From assembly GCF_000971195.1 (NCBI RefSeq), contig NZ_BBLZ01000002.1, positions 124,001 to 188,000 of the forward strand: a stretch of 64,000 bases of DNA. Reading direction: 5' to 3'. A program made the translations under genes and the position numbers. Below are positions 1 to 61,257 of this stretch, in pieces; positions within the stretch are counted from its first letter, which is position 1; the number at the start of each line of letters is the position of its first letter. Source of the stretch: Demequina soli. GTDB taxonomy: Bacteria; Actinomycetota; Actinomycetes; Actinomycetales; Demequinaceae. The notes under the pieces were generated by a model. That model saw only the letters and a list, made by a program, of their open reading frames with translations, had not been told where the DNA came from and did not search any database.

Positions 1-362
1 AGCGCCGCCTCGAGCTTCGCCGCGATGGCCGCGAAGGGGCCCTCGGCGAGGTCGCCGTGCTCGCGCGCGGCTGCGATGTCGTCGAGCGTGGGGATGAGCG
101 CCTCGACGGCCTTGGCGGTCGCGTTGGTGCCGATCAGCTCGCGGTCGCGGTCGACACGCTTGCGATAGTTGACGTACTCGGCCTGGAGGCGCTGGAGGTC
201 CGCGAGGTGCTCCGCGGCCTTGAGCTCGGCCTGGCCCAGCGCGTCATCGGCGCCGGCCTCGTCGGCCGCGAGGTCCGCCGCGCTCTCGTTCAGGATCCGC
301 TCGGCCTGGGCCAGCGCATCGTCCTGCGGCTCGTCAGGGGTCTCGTTCTGGTTCTCGGTCAT
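1..362 (-). CDS. grpE: GrpE nucleotide exchange factor, partial (3' end cut by the window)
   Basis: Nucleotide exchange factor for DnaK, promoting ADP release in the cytoplasmic Hsp70 cycle. About 120 N-terminal residues are visible, starting at the ATG at 362 (MTENQNETPDEPQDDAL). An acidic, disordered N-terminus is followed by a long alpha-helical stretch with the family signature LQAEYVNYRKRVDRD and then IPTLDDIAAAREHG. The C-terminal beta-domain lies outside the window. It is 82 bp downstream of dnaK on the same strand, the usual actinobacterial dnaK-grpE-dnaJ-hspR order, so it is probably under the same HspR control. The codons for Asp-Asp-Ala near the N-terminus carry one copy of the dispersed GGACGATGCG motif. 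Confidence 0.95.
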   Translation of the reverse strand, partial: MTENQNETPDEPQDDALAQAERILNESAADLAADEAGADDALGQAELKAAEHLADLQRLQAEYVNYRKRVDRDRELIGTNATAKAVEALIPTLDDIAAAREHGDLAEGPFAAIAAKLEAA

Positions 363-444
363 GGCTGCCTTCCCGTGAAGCGCCGAGGGCGGGCGGCCGC
401 GCGATCCTCGTGGATCCTGCGCCGCCGCCCGCCGTCGTGCCTCG

Positions 445-2295
445 TTACTTGGTGTCCTCGTCGTCGACGATCTCGGCGTCGACCACGTCGTCGTCCGACG
501 CGGCCTGCTCCGAGGCGCCCTCGCCCGCGGCGGCCTCGGCCTGCTGCGACGCGTAGACGGCCTCGCCGATCTTCTGGGCCTTCTCGACCAGCACCTCGTG
601 CTTGGCCTTGACCTCGTCGGTGTCGTCGCCCTCGAGGGCGGTCTTGACGTCGGCGATCGCGGACTTGACGTCCTCGGCCACCTCGGCGGGGACCTTGTCC
701 TCGTTCTCGGACAGGATCTTCTCGGTCGAGTAGGCGAAGGTCTCGGCGTTGTTGCGGACCTCGGCGGCCTCGCGGCGCTTCTTGTCCTCCTCCGCGTGCT
801 CCTCGGCGTCCTTGACCATGCGCTCGATGTCGTCCTTGGACAGGGCCGAGCCGCCGGACACGGTGATGGACTGCTCCTTGCCCGTGCCGCGGTCCTTCGC
901 GTGGACGTGGACGATGCCGTTCGCGTCGATGTCGAAGGTGACCTCGATCTGCGGCACGCCGCGCGGGGCCGGCGCGATGCCCGAGAGCTCGAAGGTGCCG
1001 AGCAGCTTGTTGTCGCGCGCGAACTGACGCTCGCCCTGGTAGACCTGGATCAGCACGGAGGGCTGGTTGTCCTCGGCGGTGGAGAAGACCTCCGACGACT
1101 TGGTCGGGATCGCGGTGTTGCGCTCGATCAGGGTGGTCATGACACCGCCCTTGGTCTCGATGCCCAGGCTCAGCGGCGTGACGTCGATGAGCAGGACGTC
1201 CTTGCGCTCGCCGCGGATGACGCCCGCCTGCAGCGCGGCGCCCACGGCGACGACCTCGTCCGGGTTGACGCCCTTGTTGGGCTCCTTGCCGCCGGTGAGC
1301 TCGCGCACCACGTCGGCGACGGCCGGCATGCGGGTCGAGCCGCCGACGAGCAGCACGTGGTCGATGTCCGACAGCTTGATGCCGGCATCCTTGATCACCT
1401 GGTGGAACGGCGCCTTGGTGCGGTCGAGCAGGTCCGAGGTCATCTGCTGGAACTGCGCGCGGGTGAGCTTGGTGTCGAGGTGGACGGGGCCGTTCTCGCC
1501 GATCGAGAGGTACTGCAGCGAGATGGTGGTCTGCTGCGCGGAGCTCAGCTCCTTCTTGGCCTGCTCGGCGGCCTCGCGGAGGCGCTGGACGGCGGAGCGG
1601 TCCTTGGACAGGTCCACGCCCTCGGTGTTCTTGACCTCCTTGATGAGGTGGTCGACGATGCGCTGGTCCCAGTCGTCGCCGCCGAGGCGGTTGTCGCCCG
1701 CGGTGGCCTTGACCTGGATGGTCGAGAAGTCGTCGTCGTCCTTGCCGACCTCGAGGAGGGACACGTCGAACGTGCCGCCGCCGAGGTCGAAGACGAGGAT
1801 GTGCTCGTCCTCCTTGCCCTTGTCGAGGCCGTACGCGAGGGCCGCGGCGGTGGGCTCGTTGACGATGCGCAGGACGTTGAGGCCCGCGATCTCGCCGGCC
1901 TCCTTGGTCGACTGACGCTCGTGGTCGTTGAAGTAGGCCGGGACGGTGATGACCGCGTCGGTCACCTTCTCGCCCAGGTACTCCTCGGCGTCGCGCTTGA
2001 GCTTGCCGAGGATGCGCGCCGAGATCTCCTGCGGCGTGTACTTCTTGTCGTCGATCTCCTTCGACCAGTCCGTGCCCATGTGGCGCTTGACCGACGCGAT
2101 GGTGCGGTCGACGTTGGTGACGGCCTGACGCTTGGCGATCTCGCCGACGAGGACCTCGCCGGTCTTCGAGAACGCGACCACCGACGGGGTGGTGCGGGCG
2201 CCCTCGGCGTTCGCGATGACGGTGGGCTCGCCACCCTCGAGGACCGACACCACGGAGTTGGTGGTGCCGAGGTCGATACCTACTGCACGTGCCAT
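445..2295 (-). CDS. dnaK: Chaperone DnaK (Hsp70)
   Basis: ATP-dependent Hsp70 chaperone that folds and refolds cytoplasmic proteins with GrpE and DnaJ. The 616-residue product has the usual length for actinobacteria. It opens with [18 protein letters not shown] (phosphate-1 loop) and contains the Hsp70 signatures [12 protein letters not shown] (about residue 170) and [11 protein letters not shown] (about 310). The substrate-binding domain follows from about 370, then a helical lid and the acidic tail [13 protein letters not shown]. The ATG at 2295 is preceded by a purine-rich Shine-Dalgarno (GGAGG). It is the first gene of the visible dnaK-grpE heat-shock operon, with HAIR boxes upstream. Confidence 0.99.
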
Positions 2296-2350
2296 GTCTG
2301 CTTCTTCCTCCAGTCGCGGCCTGCGCCGCGGTCAACTGTCTCGCTCAGGA

Positions 2351-2435: not shown

Positions 2436-2444
2436 CCCAGGTTT

Positions 2445-2566: not shown

Positions 2567-2572
2567 TGCCGC

Positions 2573-3167: not shown

Positions 3168-3848
3168 TCAGCCGGCGACCTTGACCCGCTGCACCACGTT
3201 GTCGCAGTCGCGGCGCTCGAAGCCGAGGTGCTCGTACAGGCGCAGCGCCGTCGTGTTGCCCGCGCCGGTGTGGAGGAACGCGCGTCGCCCCGCCTCGCCG
3301 ATGCCGTGCCCGACGACCTCCATGAGGCGCGTCGCGAGGCCGCGGCCGCGGTGCGAGTCGCGCGTGCACACGGCGCTGATCTCGGTCCACGACGGCGTGG
3401 TGAGGCGCTCGCCGGCCATCGCGACCAGGCGTCCGTCCTCCTTGATGCCGTAGTAGGCGCCGATCCGGTGGGTCTCGGAGAAGAACGGACCGGGGCGCGC
3501 CTCCTCGACCAGCGCGACCATCTCGGCGGCGTCGTCCGCGGTGAGGCGGACCACGTCGTCGTGGATCCGCCCGAAGCCCTCGGGCGCCATCATCTGGACC
3601 ACGTCGAAGCGGCCGAGCTCGTTCCAGCCCGCCGGGAGGTCCTGCGGCGTGCCGAAGAGGATCAGCTCGTCCTGGCCCGCGATCGCGGCGAGGTCGTCCC
3701 AGTCCGTCGAGGTCGGCGCCGGCGGGACCGCGGCGAAGACGGCGACGGTCGGCAGGTAGCGGGCGGCCTCGCCCTGGCGGATCGCGAGGGGACGATGCGC
3801 GCCGGACAGGGCGTGGAAGGCGGGGTGATCGAGCTCGGAGAGGGACAT
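3168..3848 (-). CDS. GNAT family N-acetyltransferase (FR47-like)
   Basis: Acetyl-CoA-dependent acetyltransferase of 226 residues if translated from the ATG at 3848 (MSLSELDHPAF). A longer frame begins at 3890, but its extra residues are arginine-rich and not family-like. The catalytic GNAT domain occupies the C-terminal half: FFSETHRIGAYYGIKEDGRLVAMAGERL, then ISAVCTRDSHRGRGLATRLM with the acetyl-CoA pyrophosphate loop RGRGLA, and the closing ALRLYEHLGFERR. The N-terminal half probably shapes the acceptor site. The substrate is not predictable. It is a lone gene converging on the rhodanese gene. Confidence 0.85.
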   Translation of the reverse strand: MSLSELDHPAFHALSGAHRPLAIRQGEAARYLPTVAVFAAVPPAPTSTDWDDLAAIAGQDELILFGTPQDLPAGWNELGRFDVVQMMAPEGFGRIHDDVVRLTADDAAEMVALVEEARPGPFFSETHRIGAYYGIKEDGRLVAMAGERLTTPSWTEISAVCTRDSHRGRGLATRLMEVVGHGIGEAGRRAFLHTGAGNTTALRLYEHLGFERRDCDNVVQRVKVAG

Positions 3849-3879
3849 GGCAACGATTGTCCCGCGTCGCCATGACCTC

Positions 3880-4674: not shown

Positions 4675-6311
4675 ATCTCCGCCCCGACGGTGGTGCGCAG
4701 GCGCTCGGAGGCGAGCATGACGGCCGCCGTGAGGGCGGCGAGCAGGACGGACGCGGCGAAGGCCATGCCCACATTGTCGATGCCGGGGCGGGACAGCAGG
4801 CGCGCGATCGCGGTGGGCAGCGTGGGCCGGTCGGGGCGCGCCACGAAGGCGGTGGCGCCGAACTCGCCCATCGCGATCGCGAACGCGAACGCGAGCGACG
4901 CGGCGGTCGCCGACCGCAGCAGCGGCGCGTCCACGCGCCACAGCACCCGCCACGGCGACGCCCCGAGGGTCGCGGCGGCCGCGCGCAGGCGCGGGTCGAT
5001 CGCCCGGGCGGCCGGCACGAGCGCGCGCACCATGAGCGGCAGCGCGACCACCGCCTGCGCCACGGGCACCAGCCACCAGGAGCCGCGGAGGTCCACGCCG
5101 AGCACGGACCGATTGAGCGTGAGCAGCACGCCCAGGCCCACCACCACCGCGGACACGCCCAGCGGCAGCATCACCAGCGACTCGAGCGCGGAGGCCCGTC
5201 GCGCGCGACGCGACACCAGCACAGCGGTCACGAGCCCGACCACGGCGGCCATCGCGGTCGCCACGGCCGCGGTGAGCAGCGACGTCACCGCCGCGTGCCA
5301 CACGGGTGCGGACAGGGTCGACCGGGCCGGGGGATCCCCGAACAGGTCGCGGTAGTGGTCGAGGCCGTAGCCGTCGACGGTCCGCAGGGAGCGCTCGACC
5401 AGCGCGAGCGCCGGCAGCGCGAGCAGCAGCAGCGTGGGCCCGAGGGCGAGGGCGATCCCGGCGCGCTCGCGGCCCCGCGGCGCCCGCGCGGGCTCGACGG
5501 CGGCCGGGGGGCGGGGCGCCCGCGCCCGCGCGCTCACCCACAGCGCGATGCCGACGAACACCACCTGCACGAGCGCGAGCACGGCCGCCGCGCGCAGGTC
5601 GAGGAACTGGTTGACCTGCAGGTAGATCTCGGTCTCGACGGTCCGGATGCGGGACCCGCCGAGCACCAGCACGAGCGCGAACGAGGTCGAGCAGAACAGC
5701 AGCACCACCGCGGACGCCGATGCGATGGCCGGGCGCAGCGCGGGCAGCGTCACCCGGGCGAGGGCCCGGGCGGGCGAGGCGCCCAGGGTGCGCGCCGCAT
5801 CGTCCATGCGCGGGGACAGGGACTCCCACGCGCCGCCGACGATGCGCACGACCACGGAGATGTTGAAGAACACGAGCGCCAGCACGATGGCCGCCATCGA
5901 CTGGTCGAGCCCGAGGCCGCCGAGCAGGCCCGAGCGCGAGAACAGGGCCGAGAACGCGGCCGCGACCACGATGGTCGGCAGCACGAACGGCACGGTGACG
6001 AGGGCGCGCACGGTCCGCGCGCCGCGCCACGAGAAGCGCGAGAGCGCCCACGCGGTGGGGATCCCGAGCAGCAGCGACCCGAGCGTGCCCAGCACCGCCA
6101 GCACCACGGTCGTGCCGATGGCGTGGAGCGTGCGCGACCGGGTCAGCACCTCGAGCGCGCCCGCGAGGTCGCCCCCGCCGAACCCGTCGTCGCCCAGCAG
6201 GCCGCGCACGATCACGGTGCCGGCCGGCCACAGGAAGAACAGCCCGAGGAAGAGCACGGGCACGCCCGCGAGCGCCCACCAGAGGCGGGCGCTCGCGGGC
6301 CAGGGCTTCAC
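4671..6311 (-). CDS. thiP: Thiamine ABC transporter permease (fused two-domain)
   Basis: Membrane permease of 546 residues made of two tandem BPD_transp_1 domains, the layout typical of ThiP. The first half holds the coupling-helix sequence SPARALARVTLPALRPAI and the second SPWRVLWRVDAPLLRSA; both are EAA-loop contacts for ThiQ. About twelve hydrophobic segments are visible. Translation begins with GTG at 6311, ten bases after the thiB stop. It is encoded between thiB and thiQ, and its stop overlaps the thiQ start. Confidence 0.9.
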   Translation of the reverse strand: MKPWPASARLWWALAGVPVLFLGLFFLWPAGTVIVRGLLGDDGFGGGDLAGALEVLTRSRTLHAIGTTVVLAVLGTLGSLLLGIPTAWALSRFSWRGARTVRALVTVPFVLPTIVVAAAFSALFSRSGLLGGLGLDQSMAAIVLALVFFNISVVVRIVGGAWESLSPRMDDAARTLGASPARALARVTLPALRPAIASASAVVLLFCSTSFALVLVLGGSRIRTVETEIYLQVNQFLDLRAAAVLALVQVVFVGIALWVSARARAPRPPAAVEPARAPRGRERAGIALALGPTLLLLALPALALVERSLRTVDGYGLDHYRDLFGDPPARSTLSAPVWHAAVTSLLTAAVATAMAAVVGLVTAVLVSRRARRASALESLVMLPLGVSAVVVGLGVLLTLNRSVLGVDLRGSWWLVPVAQAVVALPLMVRALVPAARAIDPRLRAAAATLGASPWRVLWRVDAPLLRSATAASLAFAFAIAMGEFGATAFVARPDRPTLPTAIARLLSRPGIDNVGMAFAASVLLAALTAAVMLASERLRTTVGAEI

Positions 6312-6321
6312 GGGGTGACGC

Positions 6322-10037: not shown

Positions 10038-12461
10038 ATGCAGTTCGGCCACTTCGACGACGAGGCCCGCGAGTACGTCATCACGACGCCCCACACGCCG
10101 TACCCGTGGATCAACTACCTCGGCGCCCAGGACTTCTTCGGCCTCGTGTCCCACACGGGCGGCGGCTACTCCTTCTACCGCGACGCGAAGCTGCGCCGCC
10201 TGACCCGCTACCGCTACAACAACGTGCCGGTGGACGACGGCGGCCGCTACTTCTCGATCAACGACGGCGGCGACGTGTGGAGCCCCGGCTTCCGTCCCTA
10301 CAAGACGGAGCTCGACTCGTTCGAGACGCGCCACGGCATGGGCTACACGCGCATCACGGGCTCGCGGAACGGCCTCGAGGCGAGCGTCCTGCTCTTCGTG
10401 CCGGTCGACGTCAACGCGGAGATCCACCGCGTCGAGCTGACCAACACGTCCGACGCGCCCAAGTCCTTCTCGCTGTTCAGCTTCCTCGAGTTCAACCTGT
10501 GGAACGCCGAGGACGACCAGACCAACTACCAGCGCAACCTCTCCATCGGCGAGGTCGAGGTGGTCGACGGCGCGATCTACCACAAGACCGAGTACCGCGA
10601 GCGTCGCGACCACTACGCGGTCTACGGCGTGAACGCGGAGATCTCGGGCTTCGACACCGACCGCGACACGTTCCTCGGCTTCGGCAACGGCTTCGACGAG
10701 GCCGCGGTGCCGCACGCCGGGAAGGCGGGCAACTCGGTGGCGTCCGGCTGGTACCCCATCGCGTCGCACCAGCTCGAGGTCACCCTCGAGCCGGGCGAGT
10801 CGAAGGCCTTCACCTTCGTGCTCGGCTACCTCGAGAACCCGCGCGACGACAAGTGGGAGGCACCCGGCGTCATCCGCAAGGACGGCGCGCGCGAGCTGCT
10901 TGCGAAGTTCGCCACCGACGAGCAGACGCTCGCCGCGTTCGCCGAGCTCAACGCCTATTGGGACGGCCTGCTGGGCTCGTACACCGTCGAGTCGGGCCAC
11001 GAGAAGCTCGACCGCATGGTCAACATCTGGAACCAGTACCAGTGCATGGTGACCTACAACATGTCCCGTTCCGCGAGCTTCTTCGAGACCGGCATGGGCC
11101 GCGGCATGGGCTTCCGCGACTCGTCGCAGGACCTCCTCGGCTTCGTGCACCTCGTCCCCGAGCGCGCCCGCGAGCGCATCATCGACATCGCGTCCACGCA
11201 GTTCGAGGACGGCAGCGCGTACCACCAGTACCAGCCGCTCACCAAGCGCGGCAACCACACGCTGGGCTCGGGCTTCAACGACGACCCGCTGTGGCTGATC
11301 CTCGGCGTCGCCGCCTACGTCAAGGAGACCGGCGACTTCGCGATCCTCGACGAGATGGTCCCGTTCGACAACGACGAGACCAAGGCCGCCTCCCTCATGG
11401 AGCACCTCAAGCGCTCGTTCGACCACCCGCTCAACAACCGCGGCCCGCACGGCCTGCCGCTCATCGGCCGCGCCGACTGGAACGACTGCCTCAACCTCAA
11501 CTGCTTCTCCACCGAGCCCGGCGAGTCCTTCCAGACCACCGGCAACCGCACCGGCGGCGTCGCCGAGTCGATCTTCATCGCGGGCATGTTCGCCGCGATC
11601 GGCCCCGACTACGCGGCGCTCGCGCGCCGTCGTGGGGACGATGCGGAGGCCGAGCGGGCGGAGAAGGCCGTCGAGGAGATGAAGGCCGCCGTCATCGAGC
11701 ACGGCTGGGACGGCGAGTGGTTCCTCCGCGCGTACGACTACTTCGGCAACAAGGTCGGCTCGGCCGAGAACCCCGAGGGCCAGATCTGGATCGAGCCGCA
11801 GGGCTTCTGCATCATGGGCGGCATCGGCGTTGAGGAGGGCCTCGCAGAGAAGGCGCTCGACGCGGTGGAGGAGCGCCTCGGAACCGACCACGGCATCGTC
11901 CTCCTGAACCCGGCCTACACCGAGTACCACGTCGAGCTGGGCGAGGTCACGTCCTACCCGCCGGGCTACAAGGAGAACGCGGGCATCTTCTGCCACAACA
12001 ACCCGTGGGTGATCATCGCGGAGACCGTGGTGGGCCGCGCCGAGCAGGCGTGGGACCACTACAAGCGCATCACGCCCGCGTACCGCGAGGAGATCTCCGA
12101 GGTCCACCGCCTCGAGCCCTACGTCTACGCGCAGATGATCGCCGGCAAGGACGCCGTCCGCCACGGCGAGGCCAAGAACTCGTGGCTCACCGGCACCGCG
12201 TCGTGGAACTTCGTCACCGTCTCGCAGCACCTGCTCGGCGTGCGCCCTGACTACGACGGCCTCGTGGTCGACCCGTGCATCGGCGCCGAGGTGTCGGAGT
12301 TCACCGTCCGCCGCGTGGTCCGCGGCGCGACCTACGTCATCAAGGTGACCAACTCCGGTGGCAAGGGCGCGTCCCTCGTGGTCGACGGCCAGGCCATCGA
12401 GGGCTCGCTGGTGCCGTACGCGGCGCCGGGCTCCACGGTCGAGGTGGTCGCCACCGTCTGA
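10038..12461 (+). CDS. cbp: Cellobiose phosphorylase (GH94)
   Basis: Cytoplasmic phosphorolysis of cellobiose to glucose 1-phosphate and glucose. The 807-residue protein matches Cellulomonas-type enzymes in length and layout. The N-terminal beta-sandwich begins [24 protein letters not shown] and contains [10 protein letters not shown] and [10 protein letters not shown]. The (alpha/alpha)6 barrel has [18 protein letters not shown] (about 354-371) and the catalytic-acid motif [12 protein letters not shown], where Asp483 is the likely general acid. The substrate-binding stretch [19 protein letters not shown] follows. A Shine-Dalgarno (AAAGG) precedes the ATG at 10038. There is no signal peptide, so cellobiose must be imported. 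Confidence 0.95.
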
Positions 12462-13750: not shown

Positions 13751-13894
13751 CCCGTCTCCGCTCGCACGGTCCGGCTCGGCCGGCAATTCGCTCAGCACGG
13801 AACCGGCGGCGACACGCGGGGGTGAGTGCCGCATCGTCCCCTCGCGCGCGGCGTGTCGCCGCGCGGACCGTGCCCAGCGAACCGGCCCGGGTGG

Positions 13895-16704: not shown

Positions 16705-16765
16705 CACGGTCGGGGCGGGGCGGGGCGGGGCGGGGCGCGGCGCGCGGGCGCCGGACGATGCGGCG

Positions 16766-18554: not shown

Positions 18555-19141
18555 GGCCCGCCGCGCGGATCGCGATCCTGGTCGCGGTCATCGTCGCGAT
18601 CGTCATCACCCTCGCCGGCTGCGCGCCCGGCGACGCCCCCGACTCGCCCGGATACGTCTCCGGCGACGGCACCGTCACCATCTTCAAGGACGGCGCCGAG
18701 GTCGCGCTCGCGGGCACCGACTTCGCGGGCGACACGGTCGACATCGCCGACTACCGCGGCAAGGTGGTGCTCATCAACACCTGGTACGCGTCCTGCCCGC
18801 CGTGCCGCGCGGAGGCGCCCAGCATCGTCGAGCTCGACGCCCGCGACGACGTCCAGGTGATCGGCGTCAACGGCAGGGACGATGCGCCGACCGTCGACGC
18901 GTTCGACCGCACCTTCGGCGTGGAGTACCCGAGCATCGACGACTCGCAGGGCGCCGCGACGGCGACCCTGCAGGGCATCGTCGCGATGAACGCGGTCCCC
19001 ACGACCCTCGTCGTCGACACCGAGGGCCGCCTCCACGCGCGCATCATCGGCACCGCCGACCCGTCGACGCTGCGCTCGCTCATCGCCGAGGCCGGCGGCG
19101 CGCCCGAGTCCGTCGAGCCGTCCGCCGGGACCGCCGGGTGA
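18551..19141 (+). CDS. resA: TlpA/ResA-like thiol-disulfide oxidoreductase lipoprotein
   Basis: Extracytoplasmic thioredoxin-fold protein (196 residues) that keeps apocytochrome c heme-binding cysteines reduced. It starts with GTG at 18551, overlapping the previous stop. The signal sequence RIAILVAVIVAIVITLAGC ends in a lipobox cysteine, so it is probably membrane-anchored. The catalytic segment NTWYASCPPCRAEAPSI carries CPPC, and the cis-proline loop is AVPTTLVVD. Reducing equivalents should come from CcdA, encoded next with a 4 bp overlap. Confidence 0.9.
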   Translation: MRPAARIAILVAVIVAIVITLAGCAPGDAPDSPGYVSGDGTVTIFKDGAEVALAGTDFAGDTVDIADYRGKVVLINTWYASCPPCRAEAPSIVELDARDDVQVIGVNGRDDAPTVDAFDRTFGVEYPSIDDSQGAATATLQGIVAMNAVPTTLVVDTEGRLHARIIGTADPSTLRSLIAEAGGAPESVEPSAGTAG

Positions 19142-39104: not shown

Positions 39105-39815
39105 ATGATCACCGTCCTCACGGGCGCCGGCGTCTCGACCGGCGCGGGCATCCCCGACTTCCGCGGGCCGGACGGCGTGTGGACGCGTCATCCCGAGCGC
39201 GCGCGGCTGCTCGAGATCGACGTGTTCGTCGGCGACCGCGACGCGCGCATCGAGGGCTGGCGGGACTGGGCCGCGCACGGCGCGTGGTCGGCGCGGCCCT
39301 CGCCCGCGCATCGTGCCCTCGCCCGCCTGGTCGCGGCCGGCGCGTGCGACACGATCCTCACGCAGAACATCGACGGCCTCCACCAGGCCGCCGGCACCCC
39401 GGACGATGCGGTGGTCGAGATGCACGGCCGCCTCGCCACCACGACGTGCCTGGGATGCGGCCTCTCCCTCGCGACGCGCGAGGTGCTCGAGGTGCTCCCC
39501 GAGACCCCCGACCCCCGCTGCCCGTACTGCGGCGGCCTCCTCAAGCCCGACGTCGTCTACTTCGGCGAGGCGCTGCGCGCGCGGGACCTCGAGCGCGCGG
39601 ACCGGGCGGCGCGCTCGTGCGACACGTTCGTGGCGGTCGGCACCACGCTGCAGGTCTACCCCGTGGCCGCGCTCGCGGGCACCGCCGTCGCGGCCGGCGC
39701 GTCCCTCGTGATCGTCAACGCGTCCCCCACGGGCTACGACCGGGACGCGTCGCTCGTGGTGCGCGAGCCCATCGAGGAGGCCGTGCCGCGGCTCGTCGAC
39801 GAGTGGCTGGCCTGA
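39105..39815 (+). CDS. Sir2 family NAD-dependent protein deacylase
   Basis: 236-residue sirtuin (CobB type). NAD-binding loop LTGAGVSTGAGIPDFRGPDG (5-24), TQNIDGLH (86-93), catalytic His107 in EMHGRL, and an intact zinc site with Cys115/Cys118 and Cys139/Cys142. The segment YFGEALR and the SPTG-like end of the Rossmann fold are present. It should deacylate lysines of metabolic enzymes such as acyl-CoA synthetases. The ATG at 39105 sits directly after GGAGG, too close for normal use, so the exact start is slightly uncertain. Confidence 0.92.
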   Translation: MITVLTGAGVSTGAGIPDFRGPDGVWTRHPERARLLEIDVFVGDRDARIEGWRDWAAHGAWSARPSPAHRALARLVAAGACDTILTQNIDGLHQAAGTPDDAVVEMHGRLATTTCLGCGLSLATREVLEVLPETPDPRCPYCGGLLKPDVVYFGEALRARDLERADRAARSCDTFVAVGTTLQVYPVAALAGTAVAAGASLVIVNASPTGYDRDASLVVREPIEEAVPRLVDEWLA

Positions 39816-42294: not shown

Positions 42295-43943
42295 GCGAGC
42301 ATCCGTCCGGCGCCTTCGCCCGCGCGCTCGTCGCGGCCCTCGCGGAGCGCGGCGTCGAGGACTACGTGCTCAGCCCCGGCTCCCGCTCCGGACCGCTCGC
42401 GCACGCGCTCGCGGAGGCCGGCGCCGAGAGCCCGCCGCTCGGGGCGCCGCGCGTGCGGCTGCACGTGCGCATCGACGAGCGCAGCGCGGGCTTCCTCGCG
42501 CTCGGCATCGCGCGGGGCCGCGCCGCCGCGGGCGACCCCCGGCCCGTCGCGATCGTCACCACCTCGGGCACCGCGGTCGGCAACCTGCTGCCGGCGGTCA
42601 TGGAGGCCCACCACTCGGGCGTGCCGCTGCTGCTGCTCACCGCGGACCGTCCCGCCGAGCTGCGCGGCGTCGGCGCGAACCAGACCACCGACCAGGTGGG
42701 CATCTTCGGCGCGTTCGTGCGGTGGGAGGCGGACGTGCCCGCGTCCGAGATCGGCGAGCAGCGCGACCGCGCCACCGCGCTGGCCGAGCGTGCCGTCGCG
42801 TCCGCCGCGGGCGACCGCGCGCGCGAGGACATGACCGCCGCTCCCGGCCCGGTGCATGTGAACATCGCGTTCCGCGAGCCGCTGGGCGCGGACGGCGGCG
42901 TCTGGCTCGACCCGCCGCGCCTGCACACCCCGACGGGCGGGATCCCGATCCTCGTGCCCGCCGAGGAGCCGCTGCCGCTGCCGCCCGTCGCGCGCGGCGT
43001 GGTGATCGCCGGCGACGGCGCGGGCGACGTCGCCCGGCAGGTCGCCGAGGCGCACGGCTGGCCGCTGCTGGCCGAGCCCACCTCGCTCGCCCGCTCCGGC
43101 TCGCACTGCATCCCCGACTACGTGAGGCTGCTGGAGTCCGCCCAGGGCGCCGATCTCGCGGCACGCGTCCACCAGGTGGTCGTGATCGGCCGCCCCACCC
43201 TCACCCGTCCGGTCCAGGCGCTCATCGCGCGGGCGCCGGCGCTGATCGTGGCGGCGTTCGGCGCGCGCTGGCGCGAGGCCCCGGCCCACGCGCAGGCGGT
43301 CCTGCGCGACGTGCCGCCGTCGTGGCTGTGGTCCACGGCCCCCGACGAGGCGGACCCCGGCTGGCTCGCCGAGTGGCGCGCGGGCGGGGCACGATGCGCG
43401 TCCCCCGAGGGCTGGGGCACGCGGGTGGTCGCGGCGGCCTTCGCCGAGTCGCTGCGGGACGGCGTGTGGGGCGTGGTCGGATCGTCGGGGCCCGTGCGGC
43501 TCCTCGACCGGCTCATGGCCGCCGCCCCCGCGGGAGCGGCGCCGCTGCTGGTCGCCAACCGCGGCCTCGCCGGCATCGACGGGACCATCTCGACCGCCGC
43601 CGGCGTCGCGCTCGGGTCGGGGCGCATCGTCCACGCCCTCATGGGCGACGTGACGTTCCTGCACGAGGCCGGCGGGCTGCTCGTCGGGCCGCGCGAGGAG
43701 CGGCCGCGGCTGCGGATCGTCGTGGTCAACGACGGCGGCGGCACCATCTTCTCCGGTCTCGAGCATTCCGCGGCTCCCGCCGAGAACCTGGAGCGGGTGT
43801 TCACCACGCCGCACGGGGCGGACCTGGGCGCGCTGTGCGCCGGCTACCGGGTCCCCCATCGTGAGGTGCGTTCGCGCGAGGAGCTCGCGGCCGCGCTCGC
43901 GGCGCCGGTCACGGGACTCGAGGTGATCGAGGCCGTCGTCTGA
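42291..43943 (+). CDS. menD: SEPHCHC synthase (2-succinyl-5-enolpyruvyl-6-hydroxy-3-cyclohexene-1-carboxylate synthase)
   Basis: Thiamine-diphosphate enzyme (550 residues) condensing isochorismate with 2-oxoglutarate. The PYR domain starts FARALVAALAERGVEDYVLSPGSRSGPLA and holds the cofactor-activating glutamate in RIDERSAGFLALGIA. The C-terminal PP domain has GDVTFLHEAGGLL and VVVNDGGGTIFSGLE (GDx-to-NDGG TPP motif). GTG start at 42291 overlaps the menC stop, so the two are co-translated. Convergent with menF. Confidence 0.96.
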   Translation: MSEHPSGAFARALVAALAERGVEDYVLSPGSRSGPLAHALAEAGAESPPLGAPRVRLHVRIDERSAGFLALGIARGRAAAGDPRPVAIVTTSGTAVGNLLPAVMEAHHSGVPLLLLTADRPAELRGVGANQTTDQVGIFGAFVRWEADVPASEIGEQRDRATALAERAVASAAGDRAREDMTAAPGPVHVNIAFREPLGADGGVWLDPPRLHTPTGGIPILVPAEEPLPLPPVARGVVIAGDGAGDVARQVAEAHGWPLLAEPTSLARSGSHCIPDYVRLLESAQGADLAARVHQVVVIGRPTLTRPVQALIARAPALIVAAFGARWREAPAHAQAVLRDVPPSWLWSTAPDEADPGWLAEWRAGGARCASPEGWGTRVVAAAFAESLRDGVWGVVGSSGPVRLLDRLMAAAPAGAAPLLVANRGLAGIDGTISTAAGVALGSGRIVHALMGDVTFLHEAGGLLVGPREERPRLRIVVVNDGGGTIFSGLEHSAAPAENLERVFTTPHGADLGALCAGYRVPHREVRSREELAAALAAPVTGLEVIEAVV

Positions 43944-44033: not shown

Positions 44034-45974
44034 CCGCGCCCTCAGGACCGCGTCGCGGCGCAGGGCCGGCTCGCCGTCGTGGCCCACGACGTCGCGCTCG
44101 CGCAGCTCGGCGACCTCGACCTCCCACCCGTCGCCCAGACCGGCCGCGGCCTCCTCGGCGCGGAACGCCAGATGCGCGAGCCGCGGGTGCTCGAGCACGT
44201 GCGGGTCGCGGGGGTCATGGCCCACGACGAGCAGCGTGCCGCCGGGCGCGACCAGCCGCGCGAGCCGCCCCACGAGCACCGCGATGCCCGCCTCGGGATG
44301 CGCGAAGTGGGTGGTGACCAGGTCGAACGTGGCGTCGGGCAGGTCCGCGCGCATCGCGTCGTCCACGCGCCAGTCGAGCCGGGCGGCCACGTCCTCGCCC
44401 GCGCGCGACGCGCGCTCGACGCCGCGCGACACGGCGGTCGCGGACACGTCGATCGCGGTGACCTGCCAGCCCAGCGACGCGAGGTGCACCGCGTCGGCGC
44501 CCTCGCCGCACCCGACCTCGAGCGCCCGCCCGGGGGTCAGGCGCGCCGCCTCCTCCACGAGCTGCGCGTTCGCGGCGCCGGACCAGACGGCCTCCTGCGA
44601 CGAGTAGCGCTCCTCCCACGCGGTCGCGTCCCAGCCGTCCGCGGGCAGGTCGGCGCCGCCGGCCGGGCCGTGCGCGTGCCCCGCGACCACGGGGACCGCC
44701 GCGGTGACGGCCGGCAGCGCGGCACCGATGGCACGGCGCATCGGCTCGAGCTTCGCCTCCGACTCCGCCCACTCCGAGGCCGCCTCCGACGCCGCGACGA
44801 TGCCGCAACCGGCGAACAGGCGCAGGTCGCGCGCATCGTCCCGCGACACCTCCGCGGAGCGCAGGCCGATGCACCACTCGCCGTCGCCGCCCGCGTCGAT
44901 CCAGCCGACCGGCCCGGCGTAGCGCGCGCGGTCCAGCCCCTCGAGCTCGTCGATGACGCGCGCGGCGCCCACCGTCGGGGTGCCGCACACCGCGGCGCTG
45001 GGGTGCAGCTCGCGCACGAGCTCGAGCGCCGCGACGTTGTGGGACAGCACGCCCGTGACGTCGGTCGCGAGGTGCATGACGTTGGGCAGGTGCAGCACGA
45101 ACGGCTCGTCGGGCACGTTGACGGACCCGCAGTGCCCGGCCAGCGCCTGGGTCACCGAGCGCACGGCGTACTCGTGCTCCTCACGGTCCTTCGACGAGCG
45201 CGCGAGGGCGCCGGCGCGCGCGAGGTCGCGCATGTCGTCGCCCGTCATGCGGATGGTGCCGGCGAGCACGCGGGACGTCACGAGGCCGTGGTCGACGCGC
45301 GCGAGCAGCTCGGGCGTCGCGCCCACGAGGCCGTCGACGTGGAACGCCCAGCACATGGGGTAGTCGTCGGCCAGGCGGCGCAGCAGCACGCGCACGTCCA
45401 CGGGCCGCTCGGTGCGGGCCGCGACCGCGCGCGCGAGCACCACCTTCTCCAGCTCGCCGCCGCGGATCCGCGCGACGGCGGCCTCGACGGCGGCGGTCCA
45501 GGCGGCCTCGTCGCCGGCGTCGAGCGTCACCGCGCCCGGGTCGACGGGCGCCGTCGCCGCGGCGAGCGCCTCCTCGAGGGTGACCGCGCCCTCGTCCTCG
45601 CGCGTGACCTGCGTGAACCACGCGCGGCCGTCGCGCCGGCCCAGCACGAACCGCGGCACCACCAGCGCGCCGCCCGCGCGCGACGAGTCCGCGAACGCGA
45701 ACGAGCCGAACGCCACGAGGCCGGTGCCGCGCACCCGCACGTCGTCGCGCACCTCGGCGGTGCGGCACAGCAGCCGCCACCAGTGCTGGGCGGCGTCGAT
45801 GCGCTCCTCGCCCGCGGTGTCGATGCGCGCCGCCTCGCCCCACGCGACCATGCCCTCGCCGCGCCTCACCCACGAGATCCCGGCTTCGGGAAGGGCGGCG
45901 ATCAGGTCGCCCGGGTCCTCGATCTCGACGGTGCGGACGCGCAGGGGTCCCGGGGTGGCGGAGTGGACGGTCAC
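44007..45974 (-). CDS. menF: Isochorismate synthase fused to a class I SAM methyltransferase
   Basis: 655 residues with two domains in one uninterrupted frame. Residues 1 to about 415 are a chorismate-utilising isochorismate synthase: GELEKVVLARAVAARTE, RVLAGTIRMTG, FVLHLPNVMHLATDVTG, LHPSAAVCGTP, RYAGPVGWIDAGGDGEW and LFAGCGIVAASEAASEW. After an Ala/Gly/Pro linker, about 440-640 is a methyltransferase: WEERYSSQEAVWSGAANAQLV, SAM loop ALEVGCGEGADAVHLA (about 480-495), TAIDVSATAV and DLVTTHFAHPE. The second domain resembles free-standing TehB-like actinobacterial methyltransferases, not UbiE/MenG. The last residues come from a repeat. Confidence 0.93.
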   Translation of the reverse strand: MTVHSATPGPLRVRTVEIEDPGDLIAALPEAGISWVRRGEGMVAWGEAARIDTAGEERIDAAQHWWRLLCRTAEVRDDVRVRGTGLVAFGSFAFADSSRAGGALVVPRFVLGRRDGRAWFTQVTREDEGAVTLEEALAAATAPVDPGAVTLDAGDEAAWTAAVEAAVARIRGGELEKVVLARAVAARTERPVDVRVLLRRLADDYPMCWAFHVDGLVGATPELLARVDHGLVTSRVLAGTIRMTGDDMRDLARAGALARSSKDREEHEYAVRSVTQALAGHCGSVNVPDEPFVLHLPNVMHLATDVTGVLSHNVAALELVRELHPSAAVCGTPTVGAARVIDELEGLDRARYAGPVGWIDAGGDGEWCIGLRSAEVSRDDARDLRLFAGCGIVAASEAASEWAESEAKLEPMRRAIGAALPAVTAAVPVVAGHAHGPAGGADLPADGWDATAWEERYSSQEAVWSGAANAQLVEEAARLTPGRALEVGCGEGADAVHLASLGWQVTAIDVSATAVSRGVERASRAGEDVAARLDWRVDDAMRADLPDATFDLVTTHFAHPEAGIAVLVGRLARLVAPGGTLLVVGHDPRDPHVLEHPRLAHLAFRAEEAAAGLGDGWEVEVAELRERDVVGHDGEPALRRDAVLRARRLPMTNVT

Positions 45975-46035
45975 GTTCTCACATTAGGGCCGCGGTGCCG
46001 GGGGACGATGCGCGGGCCGGGGGCGCGAGGGCGGC

Positions 46036-47310: not shown

Positions 47311-47375
47311 ACGGCCACCGTAACAACCTGGTGCGACGGTGCGGAGGCGGCGCGGCGCATCGTCCCGTGGCACCC

Positions 47376-47438: not shown

Positions 47439-47507
47439 GAAGGCCGGGGCGGAGGGGACGATGCGCGGCAGGACCGAGCATCCCGCACGCGCCTTTACCC
47501 TTGTCGG

Positions 47508-49759: not shown

Positions 49760-50460
49760 GCGAGTCCCAGGACCTGACCGGCGCCGAGGACACCCCTCAG
49801 CCGGGCGACCGCGAGCAGATCACGCTCATCAACGTCCGCCAGGGCTCGTTCGGCGCCCTCGGCGACACCTCGGGCTTCGACGGGCTCGTCACGCCGGTGA
49901 TGATGCCCGGCGCGTCCGAGCGCCCGTACGGCGAATGGTTCGACGGCGTCGTCGACGTCCTCGAGGAGCTGCTCGGGGACGATGCGGCGGCCGCCATCGA
50001 GCACGTCGTGGTCGACCGCGGCGAGCTCACGCTGCACATCGCGCGCGAGCACCTGCTCGCGGTCGCGCGTCACCTGCGCGACGACCAGGACCTCCGCTTC
50101 GAGATGTGCCTCGGCGTGTCCGGCGTGCACTACCCGGCTGACGAGCGCCCGCTCCACGCCGTGTACCCGATGCAGTCGATCACCCACAACCGCCGCCTCC
50201 GCCTCGAGGTCGCGGTCACCGACGCGGACCCGCACGTCCCGTCGCTCACCGGGATCTACCCGATGAACAACTGGCACGAGCGCGAGACCTGGGACTTCTT
50301 CGGCATCGTGTTCGACGGCCACCCCTCGCTCGCCCGCATCGAGATGCCGGACGACTGGGTGGGTCACCCCCAGCGCAAGGACTACCCGCTGGGCGGCATC
50401 CCCGTGGAGTACAAGGGCGCGGAGATCCCCTCGCCCGACAACCGGAGGCAGTACCGATGA
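49756..50460 (+). CDS. nuoC: NADH-quinone oxidoreductase subunit C
   Basis: 234-residue hydrophilic subunit. The conserved block [11 protein letters not shown], then [27 protein letters not shown] and the signature [29 protein letters not shown], lie in the C-terminal two-thirds. The N-terminus is acidic and extended, as in other actinobacteria. The only start that matches its neighbours is TTG at 49756, within a TTGA overlap with nuoB; this weak start relies on re-initiation. Confidence 0.94.
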
Positions 50461-53772: not shown

Positions 53773-56243
53773 CCGCGACCGCGGACAAGCCGGCAGCGGC
53801 GGCCGTCGAGACCGTCACCCTGACGATCGACGGCACCGAGGTCACCGTGCCCAAGGGCACGCTCATCATCCGGGCCGCCGAGCAGGTCGGCATCGAGATC
53901 CCGCGCTTCTGCGACCACCCGGCGCTCAAGCCCGCCGGCGCGTGCCGCCAGTGCCTCGTCGACGTCGCGAGCCCCGGCCCCGACGGCAACCTGCGCGCGT
54001 TCCCGAAGCCGCAGGCCTCGTGCACCATGACGGTGTCGCCCGGGATGGTGGTGAACACGCAGCACACCTCCGAGGAGGCCGACCGCGCCCAGAAGGGCGT
54101 GATGGAGCTGCTGCTCATCAACCACCCGCTCGACTGCCCCGTCTGCGACAAGGGCGGCGAGTGCCCCCTGCAGAACCAGGCGATGAGCCACGGTCGCCCC
54201 GAGAGCCGCTTCGTCGACGTCAAGCGCGTCTTCGAGAAGCCCCTCGCGCTCAGCTCCGAGATCCTGCTCGACCGTGAGCGCTGCGTCCTGTGCCAGCGCT
54301 GCACCCGCTTCTCCAAGGAGATTGCCGGGGACGCCTTCATCGATCTGCAGAATAGGGGCGCGCAGCAGCAGATCGGCACGTTCGACGAGGACGTGCTCGA
54401 CTTCGACGGCTACCGCCCCGTGGGCGCCGCCGCCGTCGACGAGTCGGGCAAGGCGTTCTCCTCCTACTACTCCGGCAACACGGTCCAGATCTGCCCCGTG
54501 GGCGCCCTGACCTCCGCCGCGTACCGCTTCCGCTCGCGCCCGTTCGACCTCGTGTCCTCCGCGAGCATCTCCGAGCACGACTCGTCCGGCGCGGCCATCC
54601 GCATCGACCACCGCCGCGGCACCATCCTGCGCCGCCTCGCGGACAACGACCCGGTCGTCAACGAGGACTGGATCACCGACAAGGACCGCTTCGCGTTCGC
54701 GTGGCAGAACCTGTCCGACCGCCTCACCCGCCCGCTCGTCCGCAAGGACGGCGAGCTCGTCGAGACGTCGTGGCCCGAGGCGCTCGCCGCCGCGGCGGCC
54801 GGCATCAAGGCCCACACCGGGGACGATGCGTCGGCGGCGGTCCTCGTCGGCGGTCGCGTCACGCTCGAGGACGCCTACGCGTACCAGAAGCTCGCCCGCG
54901 TGGTGCTCGGCACCAACGACGTCGACGCGCGCGCCCGCGCCGCCTCGGACGAGGAGCAGGCGTTCCTTGGCTCGCAGGTCGCCGGCACCGGGCTCGGCGT
55001 GACGTTCGGCGAGCTCGAGAAGGCGCCCGTGGTCGTGCTCGTCGGCTTCGAGGCCGAGGACGAGGGCGGCGTGGTTTTCCTGCGCCTGCGCAAGTCTCTC
55101 GGCCGCCAGCGCGTCGTCGCCATCGCGCCGTACCTCACGCGCGGCGCGCAGAAGCTCGACGCGAGCCTCGTGCCCGCGCTGCCCGGCCGCGAGGCCGCCG
55201 CCCTGGCGGACCTGCCCGAGGACGTCCGCGAGGCGCTGTCGCAGCCCGGCGCGGTCGTCGTGCTCGGCGAGCGTGCGGCCGAGGCCCCCGGCTCGTTCAC
55301 CGCGGCCCTGGACCTCGCATCGTCCACCGGCGCGCGCCTGGCGTGGATCCCGCGCCGTGCGGGCGAGCGCGGCGCCGTCGAGGCGGGCACCCTGCCCGGC
55401 CTCCTCCCCGGCGGCCGCGCCGCGACCCTCAAGGGTGCGCGCGAGGCGGTCGCCCAGGCGTGGGGCGTCGAGTCCCTGCCGACCGCGAAGGGCCGCGACA
55501 CCGCGGGCATCGTCGCGGCGGCCGCCGAGGGCGCCATCGGCGCGCTCGTGGTCGGCGGCGTGAGCGCCTCCGACCTCACCGGCGACGTCGCCGCCGCGCT
55601 CGAGGCCACCGGCTTCGTCGTGTCGCTCGAGGTGCGCCGCAGCGAGATCGCCGAGGCCGCCGACGTGGTCCTGCCCGTCGCGCCGCCGTCGGAGAAGTCC
55701 GGCACGTTCGTCAACTGGGAGGGTCGCCTGCGCTCGTTCGCCACCGCGATCCACACCGACGCGATGTCCGACCACCGCGTGCTCGACCTGCTTGCCCGCG
55801 AGTGGGGCGTCGAGCTCGGCACCGCGACGGTCGAGGCCGTCAACGCCGAGCTCGCGGCCCTGGGCGCCGCCGACGCCGGTGAGCGTCCCGCGGCCCCCAA
55901 GGTCAAGGCCCCCGCGCGCAGCCCGCGCGCCAAGAAGGGCACCGCGCTGCTCGCCTCGTGGCACCAGCTGGTCGACGAGGGCGCGCTGCAGGACGGCGAG
56001 CCCTACCTCGCCGGCACCGGCCGCGCCGCCGTCGCCCGCATGTCGCAGGCCACCGCCGACGCGCTCGGCGACGCCGCGAGCGTGACCGTGTCCACCGAGG
56101 CCGGCGCCATCGAGCTGCCGGTCGTCGTGACCGACATGGTCGACGGCGCCGTGTGGGTGCCGCTCAAGTCCCCCGGCTCCTGGGTGGCGCGCGACCTGCG
56201 CGCCGGCGCGGGTGCCGTCGTCACCGTGAAGGGAGCGGCATGA
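53769..56243 (+). CDS. nuoG: NADH-quinone oxidoreductase subunit G
   Basis: 824-residue multi-cluster subunit. The N-terminal ferredoxin domain holds [2Fe-2S] ligands in [20 protein letters not shown] and a later Cys in QASCTM. Next come the His/Cys cluster segment [21 protein letters not shown], then [12 protein letters not shown] and [13 protein letters not shown] molybdopterin-oxidoreductase-like domain without active metal site fills about 240-680. A basic, Pro/Ala-rich linker [14 protein letters not shown] (about 713-726) precedes the C-terminal beta-barrel-like domain. Overlaps both neighbours by 4 bp. Confidence 0.96.
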
Positions 56244-57583: not shown

Positions 57584-58338
57584 GCGGGTCCGACGAGGTC
57601 TGGAAGGTCAACCGCGAGCGCGACGGCAAGCGCGAGACCTTCGAGTCCAACCTGCCCAAGAAGGGTCCGATCGGCGAGGCGCTCGCGCCCGTCGCCGGGT
57701 TCGGCGTGTCTCTGCGCAACTTCTTCCGTCCGACGGTGACGGAGCAGTACCCGCGCGTGAAGACGCCCACCATGCCGCGCTACCATGGCCGCCACCAGCT
57801 CAACCGTCACCCCGACGGCCTCGAGAAGTGCATCGGCTGCGAGCTGTGCGCGTGGGCCTGCCCCGCGGACGCGATCTACGTCGAGGCGGACTCCAACACG
57901 CCCGACCACCAGGTCAGCCCCGGCGAGCGCTACGGCCGCGTCTACCAGATCAACTACCTGCGCTGCATCTTCTGCGGCCTGTGCATCGAGGCGTGCCCCA
58001 CGCGTGCGCTCACGATGACCAACGAGTACGAGCTCGCGGGCCCCACCCGCGAGGGCCTCATCTACGAGAAGCAGGACCTGCTCGCCCCCATGGGCGCGAA
58101 CATGCTCGCGGCGCCGCACCCGATGGTGCCCGGCACCACGGACGGCTCGTACTACCGCCAGGAGGTCACGGGCCCGGTCGACGAGCAGATCGCGTGGGTG
58201 CGTGAGCACCGCCCGTCGGACCCGACGCTGCCCGAGCACCGCGTCGACGCCGCGGCGACGGACGATGCGCCCCACCAGGTCCGCTACACGTCGCCGCAGC
58301 ACGCGGCCGGCGAGCGCCACGAGGGCGGTGCGGTCTGA
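57580..58338 (+). CDS. nuoI: NADH-quinone oxidoreductase subunit I
   Basis: 252-residue subunit with two [4Fe-4S] clusters (N6a/N6b): [20 protein letters not shown] and [20 protein letters not shown], each CxxCxxCxxx[17 protein letters not shown] and MTNEYELAG are family-typical. The C-terminal 80 residues are a low-complexity extension past the usual end. GTG at 57580 overlaps the nuoH stop. Confidence 0.96.
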
Positions 58339-59075: not shown

Positions 59076-59374
59076 TGGACCCCATCAACTTCGTCATCCT
59101 CGCGAGCATCCTGTTCGCGATCGGCGCGGCCGCCGTGCTGCTGCGCCGCAACGCGATCATCGCGTTCATGGGCGTGGAGCTCATGCTCAACGCCGCCAAC
59201 CTCGCCCTCGTCGCCTTCTCCCGCATGCACGGTGAGATCGACGGCCAGATCATGGCGTTCTTCGTCCTGACCGTGGCGGCGGCGGAGGTCGTGGTCGGGC
59301 TCGGCATCATCATCGCCGTGTTCCGCGCGCGCCAGACCATCTCGCTCGACGAACCCGCTGAGCTGAAGGGCTGA
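59075..59374 (+). CDS. nuoK: NADH-quinone oxidoreductase subunit K
   Basis: 99-residue, three-helix antiporter-related subunit. Conserved glutamates for proton translocation occur in [18 protein letters not shown] and [22 protein letters not shown] shares a base with the nuoJ stop; nuoL begins two bases after its stop. Confidence 0.96.
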
Positions 59375-59376
59375 CC

Positions 59377-61257
59377 ATGCTTGATCTCACCTGGCTTCTC
59401 ATCGCCGTGCCCTTGGCCAGCGCCGCCTTCCTGCTCCTCGCGGGCAAGCGCGCCGACAGGTGGGGCCACTGGGTCGGCGTCGGCGCATCGTCCGCCGCCT
59501 TCGTCGTCGGCCTCGTCGCGCTCATCCAGATGCTCGGCCTCGACTCCGAGGACCGCGCCCATGCGGTGCACCTCTTCACGTGGATCCCCGGCGGCGAGCT
59601 CAACCTCGACGCCGGACTGCTGGTGGACCCCCTGTCGATGACGTTCGTCATGCTCGTCACGTTCGTGGGCACGCTCATCCACGTCTACTCCGTGGCCTAC
59701 ATGGAGCACGACGCCTCGCGCCGCCGCTTCTTCGCGTACCTCAACCTGTTCGTCGCGGCGATGCTGCTGCTGGTCCTCGCGGACTCCTACCTCCTGCTGT
59801 TCGTCGGCTGGGAGGGCGTGGGCCTCGCGTCGTACCTGCTCATCGGCTTCTGGAACCACAAGCCCGAGTACGCGACCGCCGCGAACAAGGCCTTCGTGGT
59901 CAACCGCATCGGCGACATCGGCCTCATCCTCGCGATGGGCCTGATGTTCACGTACTTCGGCGCGCTCGACTTCGGCTCGGTGTTCGCCGCGGTCCCGCAG
60001 GCCTCCACCGCGCAGCTCACCGCGATCGGCCTCATGCTGCTCGTCGCGGCGTGCGGCAAGTCCGCGCAGTTCCCGCTGCAGTCCTGGCTGGGCGACGCGA
60101 TGGCCGGCCCGACGCCGGTGTCCGCGCTCATCCACGCCGCGACGATGGTCACCGCGGGCGTCTACCTCATCGTGCGCTCCGCGCCGATCTTCGAGGGCGC
60201 CCCCGCCGCGCAGACCACGGTCGCCGCGATCGGAGCGTTCACCCTCATCCTCGGCGCGCTCATCGGCATGGCCAAGGACGACATCAAGAAGGCGCTCGCC
60301 GCCTCGACGATGTCGCAGATCGGCTACATGATGCTCGCCGCGGGCCTCGGCCCCGTGGGCTATGCGTTCGCGATCTTCCACCTCGTCACGCACGGCTTCT
60401 TCAAGGCCGGCATGTTCCTCGGCGCGGGCTCGGTCATGCACGGCATGAACGACCAGGTCGACATGCGCCGCTTCGGCGCGCTGCGCACCGCGATGGTCAC
60501 CACCTGGGTCACCTTCGGCCTCGGCTGGCTCGCGATCCTCGGCGTCCCGCCGTTCTCCGGCTTCTGGTCCAAGGACAAGATCATCGAGGCCGCGTTCATC
60601 GGCGACGACGTCCAGCCGTGGATCCTCGGCGGCGCCGCACTCATCGGCGCCGGCCTCACCGCGTTCTACATGTCGCGCCTGTTCTTCATGACGTTCCACG
60701 GCAAGGCCCGCTGGACCGACGAGCAGCACCCGCACGAGTCGCCGGCCCTCATGACGGTGCCGATGATCATCCTCGCCGTGGGCTCCGCCTTCCTGGGCCT
60801 CATCCTCGCGACGGGCGACCGCTTCGTCACGTGGCTCGAGCCGGTCACCGGCCACGCCGAGCACGGCGAGCCCGTCCTGCCCGCCGCGGTCATCATGGTC
60901 GCCACCCTGCTGCTCGTCGCGCTCGGCGCGTGGATCGCGTGGCGCAAGTACGGCGCCGCGGACGTGCCCGAGACGGCCCCGGCCGCCTCGCTGGCGACCA
61001 TCGCCGCGCGCAACGACATGTTCCAGGACTCCGTCAACAGGGGCGTGTTCGAGCGCCCCGGCACCCACCTCACGCGCACCCTCGTGTACGCCGATGCAGC
61101 GCTCGTGGACGGCGCGGTCGACGCGACCGCGCACGCCTTCGCCCGCACCGGCGAGGTCACGCGCAAGACGCAGAACGGCCAGGTCCGCTCCTACGCGCTG
61201 ACCATGGTGGTGGGGCTCGTCATCGTCATCCTCGTCGTGGTCCAGGGGGGTCTCTAA
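59377..61257 (+). CDS. nuoL: NADH-quinone oxidoreductase subunit L
   Basis: 626-residue Mrp-antiporter-like proton pump at the distal end of the membrane arm. [21 protein letters not shown] holds the conserved TM5 glutamate; [56 protein letters not shown] and [20 protein letters not shown] carry the lysine/histidine relay. A lateral helix and final anchor helix ([18 protein letters not shown]) close the protein. Confidence 0.97.

Follow-up and report, generated by a model that had tools for sequence, protein, structure and literature searches.

It has long been asked why tagging of the cell's own DNA is found in some competent bacteria but not in most. The question has been examined chiefly in two families of proteobacteria, the Neisseriaceae with their DNA uptake sequences (DUS) and the Pasteurellaceae with their uptake signal sequences (USS). 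Excerpts of the published accounts describe eight DUS dialects in the Neisseriaceae (PMC12616744), a CTG core that is required in this family (PMC3630211), and a genomic arrangement in which closely spaced inverted repeats are frequent and the majority of copies are intergenic (PMC2397512). For the USS, densities of 500 to 800 per Mb (Hin-USS) and 200 to 500 per Mb (Apl-USS) are given (PMC12616744, in part). Two further systems are of interest here, each likewise taken from part of the source: cyanobacterial HIP1 (highly iterated palindrome 1), which alternate words replace in some lineages and whose one-base deviations lie at the outer bases (PMC4390886), and the natural transformation of Micrococcus luteus with Flp/Tad pili, ComEA and ComEC (PMC6370729). 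Here we analysed GGACGATGCG, a 10-mer that recurs in a 64,000-nucleotide stretch of the Demequina soli genome (the window, C15:124001-188000, in a genome of 16 contigs). We consider it likely that this word is the local dialect of a DUS-like self tag in Demequina, spread by biased uptake.

A sequence-only reading of the window had reported the word as strongly over-represented, and the counts bore this out. The window holds 27 exact copies (15 plus, 12 minus) spanning 315 to 59493, whereas in 100 dinucleotide shuffles of the window the count averaged 0.90 and peaked at 4, with 0/100 reaching 27. Some figures of that reading needed correction: the variant GCACGATGCG occurs 9 times (5 plus, 4 minus) rather than 7, both words together divide into 20 plus and 16 minus rather than 20 and 14, and the GC content, put at about 73%, is 72.3%, a small correction. 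The excess is genome-wide and extends well beyond the window, with 1,475 copies (754 and 721 by strand) in 3,002,692 bases, or 491 per Mb, compared with 3 copies of the reversed word. The reversed word contains TAG and is therefore not a neutral null, so that the dialects described below were judged by their density and, where sequence was at hand, by a Markov expectation.

Detailed statistics were obtained for 447 kb (15% of the genome), comprising the window and stretches of C15, C9 and C8, in which our own simple codon-usage caller gave 428 genes and 89 to 91% coding sequence; unless stated otherwise, the figures for this genome that follow refer to these 447 kb. They contain 226 copies (118 plus, 108 minus) compared with 11.3 expected under an order-4 Markov model. 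The spacing of the copies was near-random (coefficient of variation 0.69 to 1.0). When the sample was cut into blocks of at most 20 kb, 22 of the 23 contained copies on both strands. The word was found 143 times in genes (0.354 per kb) and 82 times between them, with one copy on an edge (1.95 per kb between genes), a density 5.5-fold higher between genes than within. The 82 intergenic copies, to be compared with 0.41 expected from an order-2 model, occupied 65 of 263 intergenic stretches and occurred in all four gap types. Within genes, 86 copies lay on the same strand as the gene and 57 antisense, while synonymous-codon shuffles (n=20) gave 4.2 and 9.8, respectively (maxima 8 and 15), so that the coding total of 143 represents a tenfold excess over the approximately 14 left after shuffling. 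Thus, neither composition nor codon use accounts for GGACGATGCG, and the proposal of the sequence-only reading that selection or spread acts at the DNA level held: the force is on the word, not on the protein or on codon use.

The copies in the window are distributed as follows; the operon named as nuo-like is one that we take to be so from its gene order.

315..324, minus: in the gene ending at 362 (minus), GAC GAT GCG frame
3790..3799, plus: antisense in gene 3168-3848 (minus)
5796..5805, minus: in gene 4671-6311 (minus), GAC GAT GCG frame
11636..11645, plus: in gene 10038-12461 (plus), GAC GAT GCG frame
13830..13839, minus: intergenic
16753..16762, plus: intergenic
18877..18886, plus: in gene 18551-19141 (plus), GAC GAT GCG frame
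20330..20339, plus: in gene 19902-21512 (plus), GAC GAT GCG frame
21721..21730, minus: antisense in gene 21509-22498 (plus)
30563..30572, plus: antisense in gene 29636-30649 (minus)
33750..33759, plus: in gene 33502-33804 (plus), GAC GAT GCG frame
34751..34760, plus: antisense in gene 34671-35678 (minus), facing the 34809 copy, starts 58 bases apart
34809..34818, minus: in gene 34671-35678 (minus), GAC GAT GCG frame
35628..35637, minus: in gene 34671-35678 (minus), GAC GAT GCG frame
39401..39410, plus: in gene 39105-39815 (plus), GAC GAT GCG frame
40606..40615, minus: in gene 40333-41262 (minus), GAC GAT GCG frame
41736..41745, plus: in gene 41407-42294 (plus), GAC GAT GCG frame
43623..43632, minus: antisense in gene 42291-43943 (plus)
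44832..44841, minus: in gene 44007-45974 (minus), GAC GAT GCG frame
46003..46012, plus: intergenic, site intact in G024, G019 and G014 among 13 aligned relatives
47356..47365, minus: intergenic, pointing away from the 47456 copy
47456..47465, plus: intergenic
49977..49986, plus: in gene 49756-50460 (plus) of the nuo-like operon, GAC GAT GCG frame
54821..54830, plus: in gene 53769-56243 (plus), GAC GAT GCG frame
55316..55325, minus: antisense in gene 53769-56243 (plus)
58260..58269, plus: in gene 57580-58338 (plus), GAC GAT GCG frame
59484..59493, minus: antisense in gene 59377-61257 (plus)

The interpretation given by the sequence-only reading thus stood in part. Its DNA-level force and its rejection of a polar guide agreed with the counts; its statement that copies ignore the reading frame did not, as 15 of the 22 gene copies in the window read GAC GAT GCG on the strand of the gene. 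Among the 143 coding copies of the larger sample, GAC GAT GCG accounted for 83, GCA TCG TCC for 37, CGC ATC GTC for 17 and two other classes for 6 (codon readings derived from phase). Since the remaining 60 copies fall into these four further strand and frame classes, and the density peaks outside genes, the enrichment is not confined to one frame. Protein sequence appears to be skewed by the word, because the tripeptides it encodes exceed their reverses (DDA 149 to 70, RIV 74 to 35, ASS 94 to 50).

A cluster of ribosomal-protein genes was poor in the word, with 4 copies in C15:240-268 kb. The GC content of C15:243-268 kb is mostly 62 to 71%, compared with 72% for the genome, and few copies lie there. 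As this stretch contains what we take from their sequences to be rpoC, rpsL, fusA, tuf and ribosomal-protein genes, the idea that its low-GC, word-poor genes are foreign DNA was rejected. No copy was found in or near the 5% of genes with the lowest GC (21 of the 423 genes of at least 60 codons), which shows only that GGACGATGCG avoids strongly constrained genes.

The word has a strict core and loose ends. One-base variants exceeded twice their expectation only at positions 1, 2, 3 and 10, and none did so within the core CGATGC. Among intergenic one-base variants the counts were small: C 8 and A 3 at position 2, C 6 and A 3 at position 10, and 0 to 2 elsewhere. The base 5' of the word was G in 68 of the 82 intergenic copies, and flanks further out held little information. 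The local word is accordingly GGACGATGCG, preferably with an extra leading G; as written for tagged donor DNA, the species' own word is GGGACGATGCG.

Close copies tend to face each other. Where two copies started within 50 bases of each other (13 pairs), 11 pairs were facing, 1 tandem and 1 outward; two of the facing pairs border a stretch of N and could be a single pair counted twice. When named genomes were searched for two copies facing each other, at least 112 stretches were found, and of the 80 that carried a title, 53 were from Demequina and 27 from other organisms. Further copies averaged 2.9 per 8 kb in the Demequina loci and were absent from the other 27. In these 53 loci (L031-L110), which were chosen for having facing pairs, the loops of the 56 pairs measured 8 bases in 9 cases and 13 to 16 bases in 31, rather than being spread over 2 to 30. 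This clustering perhaps reflects a hairpin or a two-site binding geometry. In a Saprospiraceae metagenome-assembled genome, three contigs (L065, L079, L093; 41 to 44% GC) contain longer inverted repeats that enclose the same facing words, with no further copies; they form a dispersed hairpin element that is probably unrelated to the Demequina word.

Related words were found by reading 20 to 100 kb of further genomes and then counting each candidate genome-wide. Genome sizes of the relatives were rounded, so that the densities are approximate, and G011 is 50% complete. Among 47 genomes of the family, GGACGATGCG reached about 295 to 521 per Mb in 15 and stayed below 100 per Mb in the rest. At about 200 per Mb or more, GGCCGATGCG was found in 8 genomes, GGCCGATGCT in one (G005, 736 copies), and GCCGATGCCG in five, two of which also carry GGCCGATGCG. 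For its part, the 11-mer GCCCGACGCTG reached this density in G037 alone (622 copies, compared with 5 reversed), and G026 has 164 copies compared with 9 reversed. Altogether, 28 of the 47 genomes carry at least one of the five words at about 200 per Mb or more, and the dialect words share an inner CGATGC or CGACGC. In a tree built from one locus (41 genomes), GGACGATGCG marks a clade of 14 genomes around that of the window, is weak in G023, and recurs in G021 and G028. A further word, ACGATGCCGA, was seen in 40 kb of G033; in G004, G034, G043 and G044, no clear word of such kind was apparent in the 40 to 100 kb read of each. Short repeats confined to single species were also noted in G017 (L218, L219), G022 (L220, L221) and G034 (L154, L155), namely AGTTCGTGAG, ACCACGGATCCCACC and GGGGTTGCGGAAC, 10- to 12-mers present 4 to 10 times per 40 kb.

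When the order was scanned with GGMCGATGCK (396 genomes, 35 in the family and 361 outside), only G351, from another family, was markedly high outside the family (816 copies, compared with 110 reversed). In 40 kb of this genome (L324, L325), 35 of 37 CCGATGC copies lay within genes, and a coding repeat accounted for part of the GCCGATGCC excess. None of 46 relatives of G351 was alike, the next highest count of GGMCGATGCK being 289 (G252). A second system is not claimed for this lone genome, with copies mostly in genes and partly in a coding repeat.

Site turnover was followed at the nuo-like locus, taken from 40 relatives. The protein encoded at 50457-51797 in the window is 94 to 95% identical to its counterparts in G010, G019, G024 and G020. 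In 13 aligned relatives, 0 to 4 of the 9 GGACGATGCG sites of the window's own species were intact. Comparing 10 of the clade's species in all 45 pairs gave 477 comparisons at 53 sites, and the word was intact in 138 of them (29%). The flanks of the sites were divergent (72% identity), and flanking 10-mers were intact in only 15%, compared with 29% for the word. Where the word was missing, the place was 1 base off in 57 cases, 2 off in 24 and 3 or more off in 183, with a gap or N in 75. Copies therefore occupy permissive DNA, outlast their immediate surroundings, and appear and vanish between species. Turnover together with better survival than the flanks indicates that a supply of words is maintained, not a set of fixed sites.

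The genome carries a type IV pilus operon (L230, C13:125001-145000) with PilB- and PilT-like ATPases (PF00437), PilC (PF00482), pilins (PF07963), a prepilin peptidase (PF01478) and PilM (PF11104); two proteins at the places of PilN and PilO had no Pfam match. Genes for ComEA (SLBB plus helix-hairpin-helix) and ComEC (PF03772) adjoin in L327. N_methyl pilins and ComEC were each found in 46 of 47 family genomes, and ComEC was also matched in 10 of 14 control genomes. These genes would make uptake possible, without discriminating between readings of the word. The pilins of the operon (L230:10067-13542 and relatives L232-L243) vary greatly between species, the second being about 150 to 200 or 600 to 650 amino acids long. 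An orphan minor pilin (L231:9589-9999) is widespread across species and matches 18 distinct PDB pilin sequences at an E value of 0.01 or better. It was considered as a ComP-like receptor and dropped, as in an alignment of 21 sequences from 30 loci it did not track the dialect.

The features described above have close counterparts in the neisserial system, whose receptor is ComP: a 10-mer that occurs on both strands, hundreds of times per Mb, biased toward permissive and intergenic DNA, with close inverted pairs and related dialects built on a strict core, in a genome with type IV pilus and ComEC genes. In contrast, the Demequina core is CGATGC instead of CTG, 143 of 226 copies lie in genes whereas those of Neisseria are mostly intergenic, the dialects recur in separated lineages of the one-locus tree, and the host is a high-GC Gram-positive bacterium. 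The USS resemble the Demequina word in density per Mb and in dialects that differ around a shared core; unlike it, they are unrelated 9-mers, AAGTGCGGT and ACAAGCGGT in the excerpt of PMC12616744, of two dialect types, and involve an outer-membrane uptake step. With Micrococcus luteus, Demequina shares an actinobacterial host with ComEA and ComEC genes, and has a PilB/PilT/PilC/PilM operon in place of Flp/Tad pili.

The high density, the even split between strands, the position of copies in permissive and intergenic DNA, the pairs that face each other, the loose ends around a strict core, the related dialects and the better survival of the word than of its flanks all agree with the descriptions of DUS and USS, so that the word looks like a DUS and probably works like one; among the possibilities named by the sequence-only reading, a DNA-uptake-like signal gave the best fit. 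A broader proposition appears to us somewhat less secure, and still favored: that Demequina has an independently evolved uptake code of at least five dialect words on a CGATGC or CGACGC core, kept by biased transformation via type IV pili, and, for the literature searched, without precedent in a Gram-positive phylum or in any family but the Neisseriaceae and Pasteurellaceae. In open-licence literature, the matches listed included no description of a comparable word from this group, which is not proof, and no uptake-sequence system outside those two families; a 2026 paper on M. luteus competence (PMC12849477) mentions neither uptake sequence nor uptake signal nor DUS.

Under this reading of the word as an uptake tag, we infer that Demequina is naturally transformable, that its uptake is biased, with a pilin as receptor, and that the word owes its abundance to drive. 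A minor pilin on the type IV pilus would bind double-stranded DNA, favoring the word, and the pilus would hand tagged DNA to ComEA and ComEC for entry and recombination. As tagged fragments would enter more often, chance copies could spread through the species by biased uptake and recombination, limited to places where coding and regulation tolerate the word. Should the receptor preference drift, the outer bases would change genome-wide and a new dialect would arise, which might discourage the uptake of DNA from other species.

Several observations weigh against this reading. The word was intact less often (29%) than permuted 10-mers (37%) or all 10-mers of the locus (40%). N_methyl pilins and ComEC are present with or without a recognised strong word and so do not track it, and in G010 and G020, where the word is dense, the orphan minor pilin is only 42% identical. 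A lack of the word in acquired DNA was not demonstrated, as the 447 kb yielded no acquired element and the stretch that is poor in both GC and the word is the ribosomal-protein cluster. We saw neither transformation nor uptake data for the genus Demequina. No counted word reached 200 per Mb in 19 of the 47 family genomes, including all 3 of the other two genera, and GGACGATGCG, GGCCGATGCT and GCCCGACGCTG each occur in separated lineages, so that the one-locus tree is not followed cleanly. Finally, HIP1 too is a highly iterated GC-rich word with lineage alternates and deviations mostly at the outer bases (excerpt of PMC4390886).

This last resemblance makes a HIP1-like, methylation-linked word the main rival, in itself unlikely. 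A methyltransferase would read an inner part such as GATGC, or such as GACGC where GCCCGACGCTG is the word, and through a bias in mismatch repair linked to it the longer word would arise and persist, in keeping with the inner bases that the dialects share. GATGC and GACGC are the sites of SfaNI and HgaI, a match that could well be due to chance. HIPs, however, are palindromic and methyltransferase-linked, whereas GGACGATGCG is not its own reverse complement, and this explanation leaves the intergenic preference and the facing pairs unaccounted for. Restriction avoidance, for its part, would predict a deficit of copies, whereas the word is in excess. A shade less probable again is a site for a nucleoid-associated or chromosome-organising protein, occurring about every 2 kb on both strands and shifting with the specificity of the protein. 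Such a site would suit the even spread over the stretches examined, the near-random spacing, the bias toward intergenic DNA and the looser ends around a strict core, but more than 1,000 sites altered at each shift of specificity are hard to explain without drive. Moreover, sites are not kept across species, missing ones often being 3 or more bases off, and no such protein was identified, no search aimed at one having been made.

We regard as improbable a small dispersed hairpin, transcription-terminator element or tiny mobile repeat with the word as its stem. The strong preference for facing among close pairs and the loops of mostly 8 or 13 to 16 bases speak for it, whereas most copies are single, the majority lie within genes, and the flanks are little informative. 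T accounted for 13% just downstream of the facing pairs in the 53 Demequina loci, which, together with intergenic copies in every gap type, opposes classical intrinsic terminators. A polar guide such as the FtsK-orienting polar sequence (KOPS) or Chi is hardly credible: it shares the high copy number, whereas the nearly equal strand totals and the presence of both strands in all blocks but one uphold, for the 447 kb, its earlier dismissal. An apparent one-strandedness proved to be an artefact of listing, as with GGCCGATGCG in G001, which occurs on both strands (19 copies on the two combined in C1:100-140 kb, where the listing gave 10, all plus), and KOPS-type polarity was dropped.

If the uptake-tag reading is true, Demequina would add a third case, unrelated to the other two and Gram-positive, with its many named species and several dialects, in which self-recognition selection and plain molecular drive could be tested against each other as the origin of uptake codes. 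It would mean that tagging needs no outer membrane, and it could show the co-change of receptor and word and the role of dialects as species barriers. In addition, placing the word of a species on donor DNA might ease the genetic manipulation of these actinobacteria.

A second dispersed repeat, TTCCCAATGACAGATGTGA, was noted in the same genome at five places of the 447 kb (C15:78747, C15:199614, C15:232255, C9:48103 and C9:58706). Its copies lie kilobases apart, which ruled out a clustered regularly interspaced short palindromic repeat (CRISPR) array, and the copy at C9:58706 opens a long hairpin.

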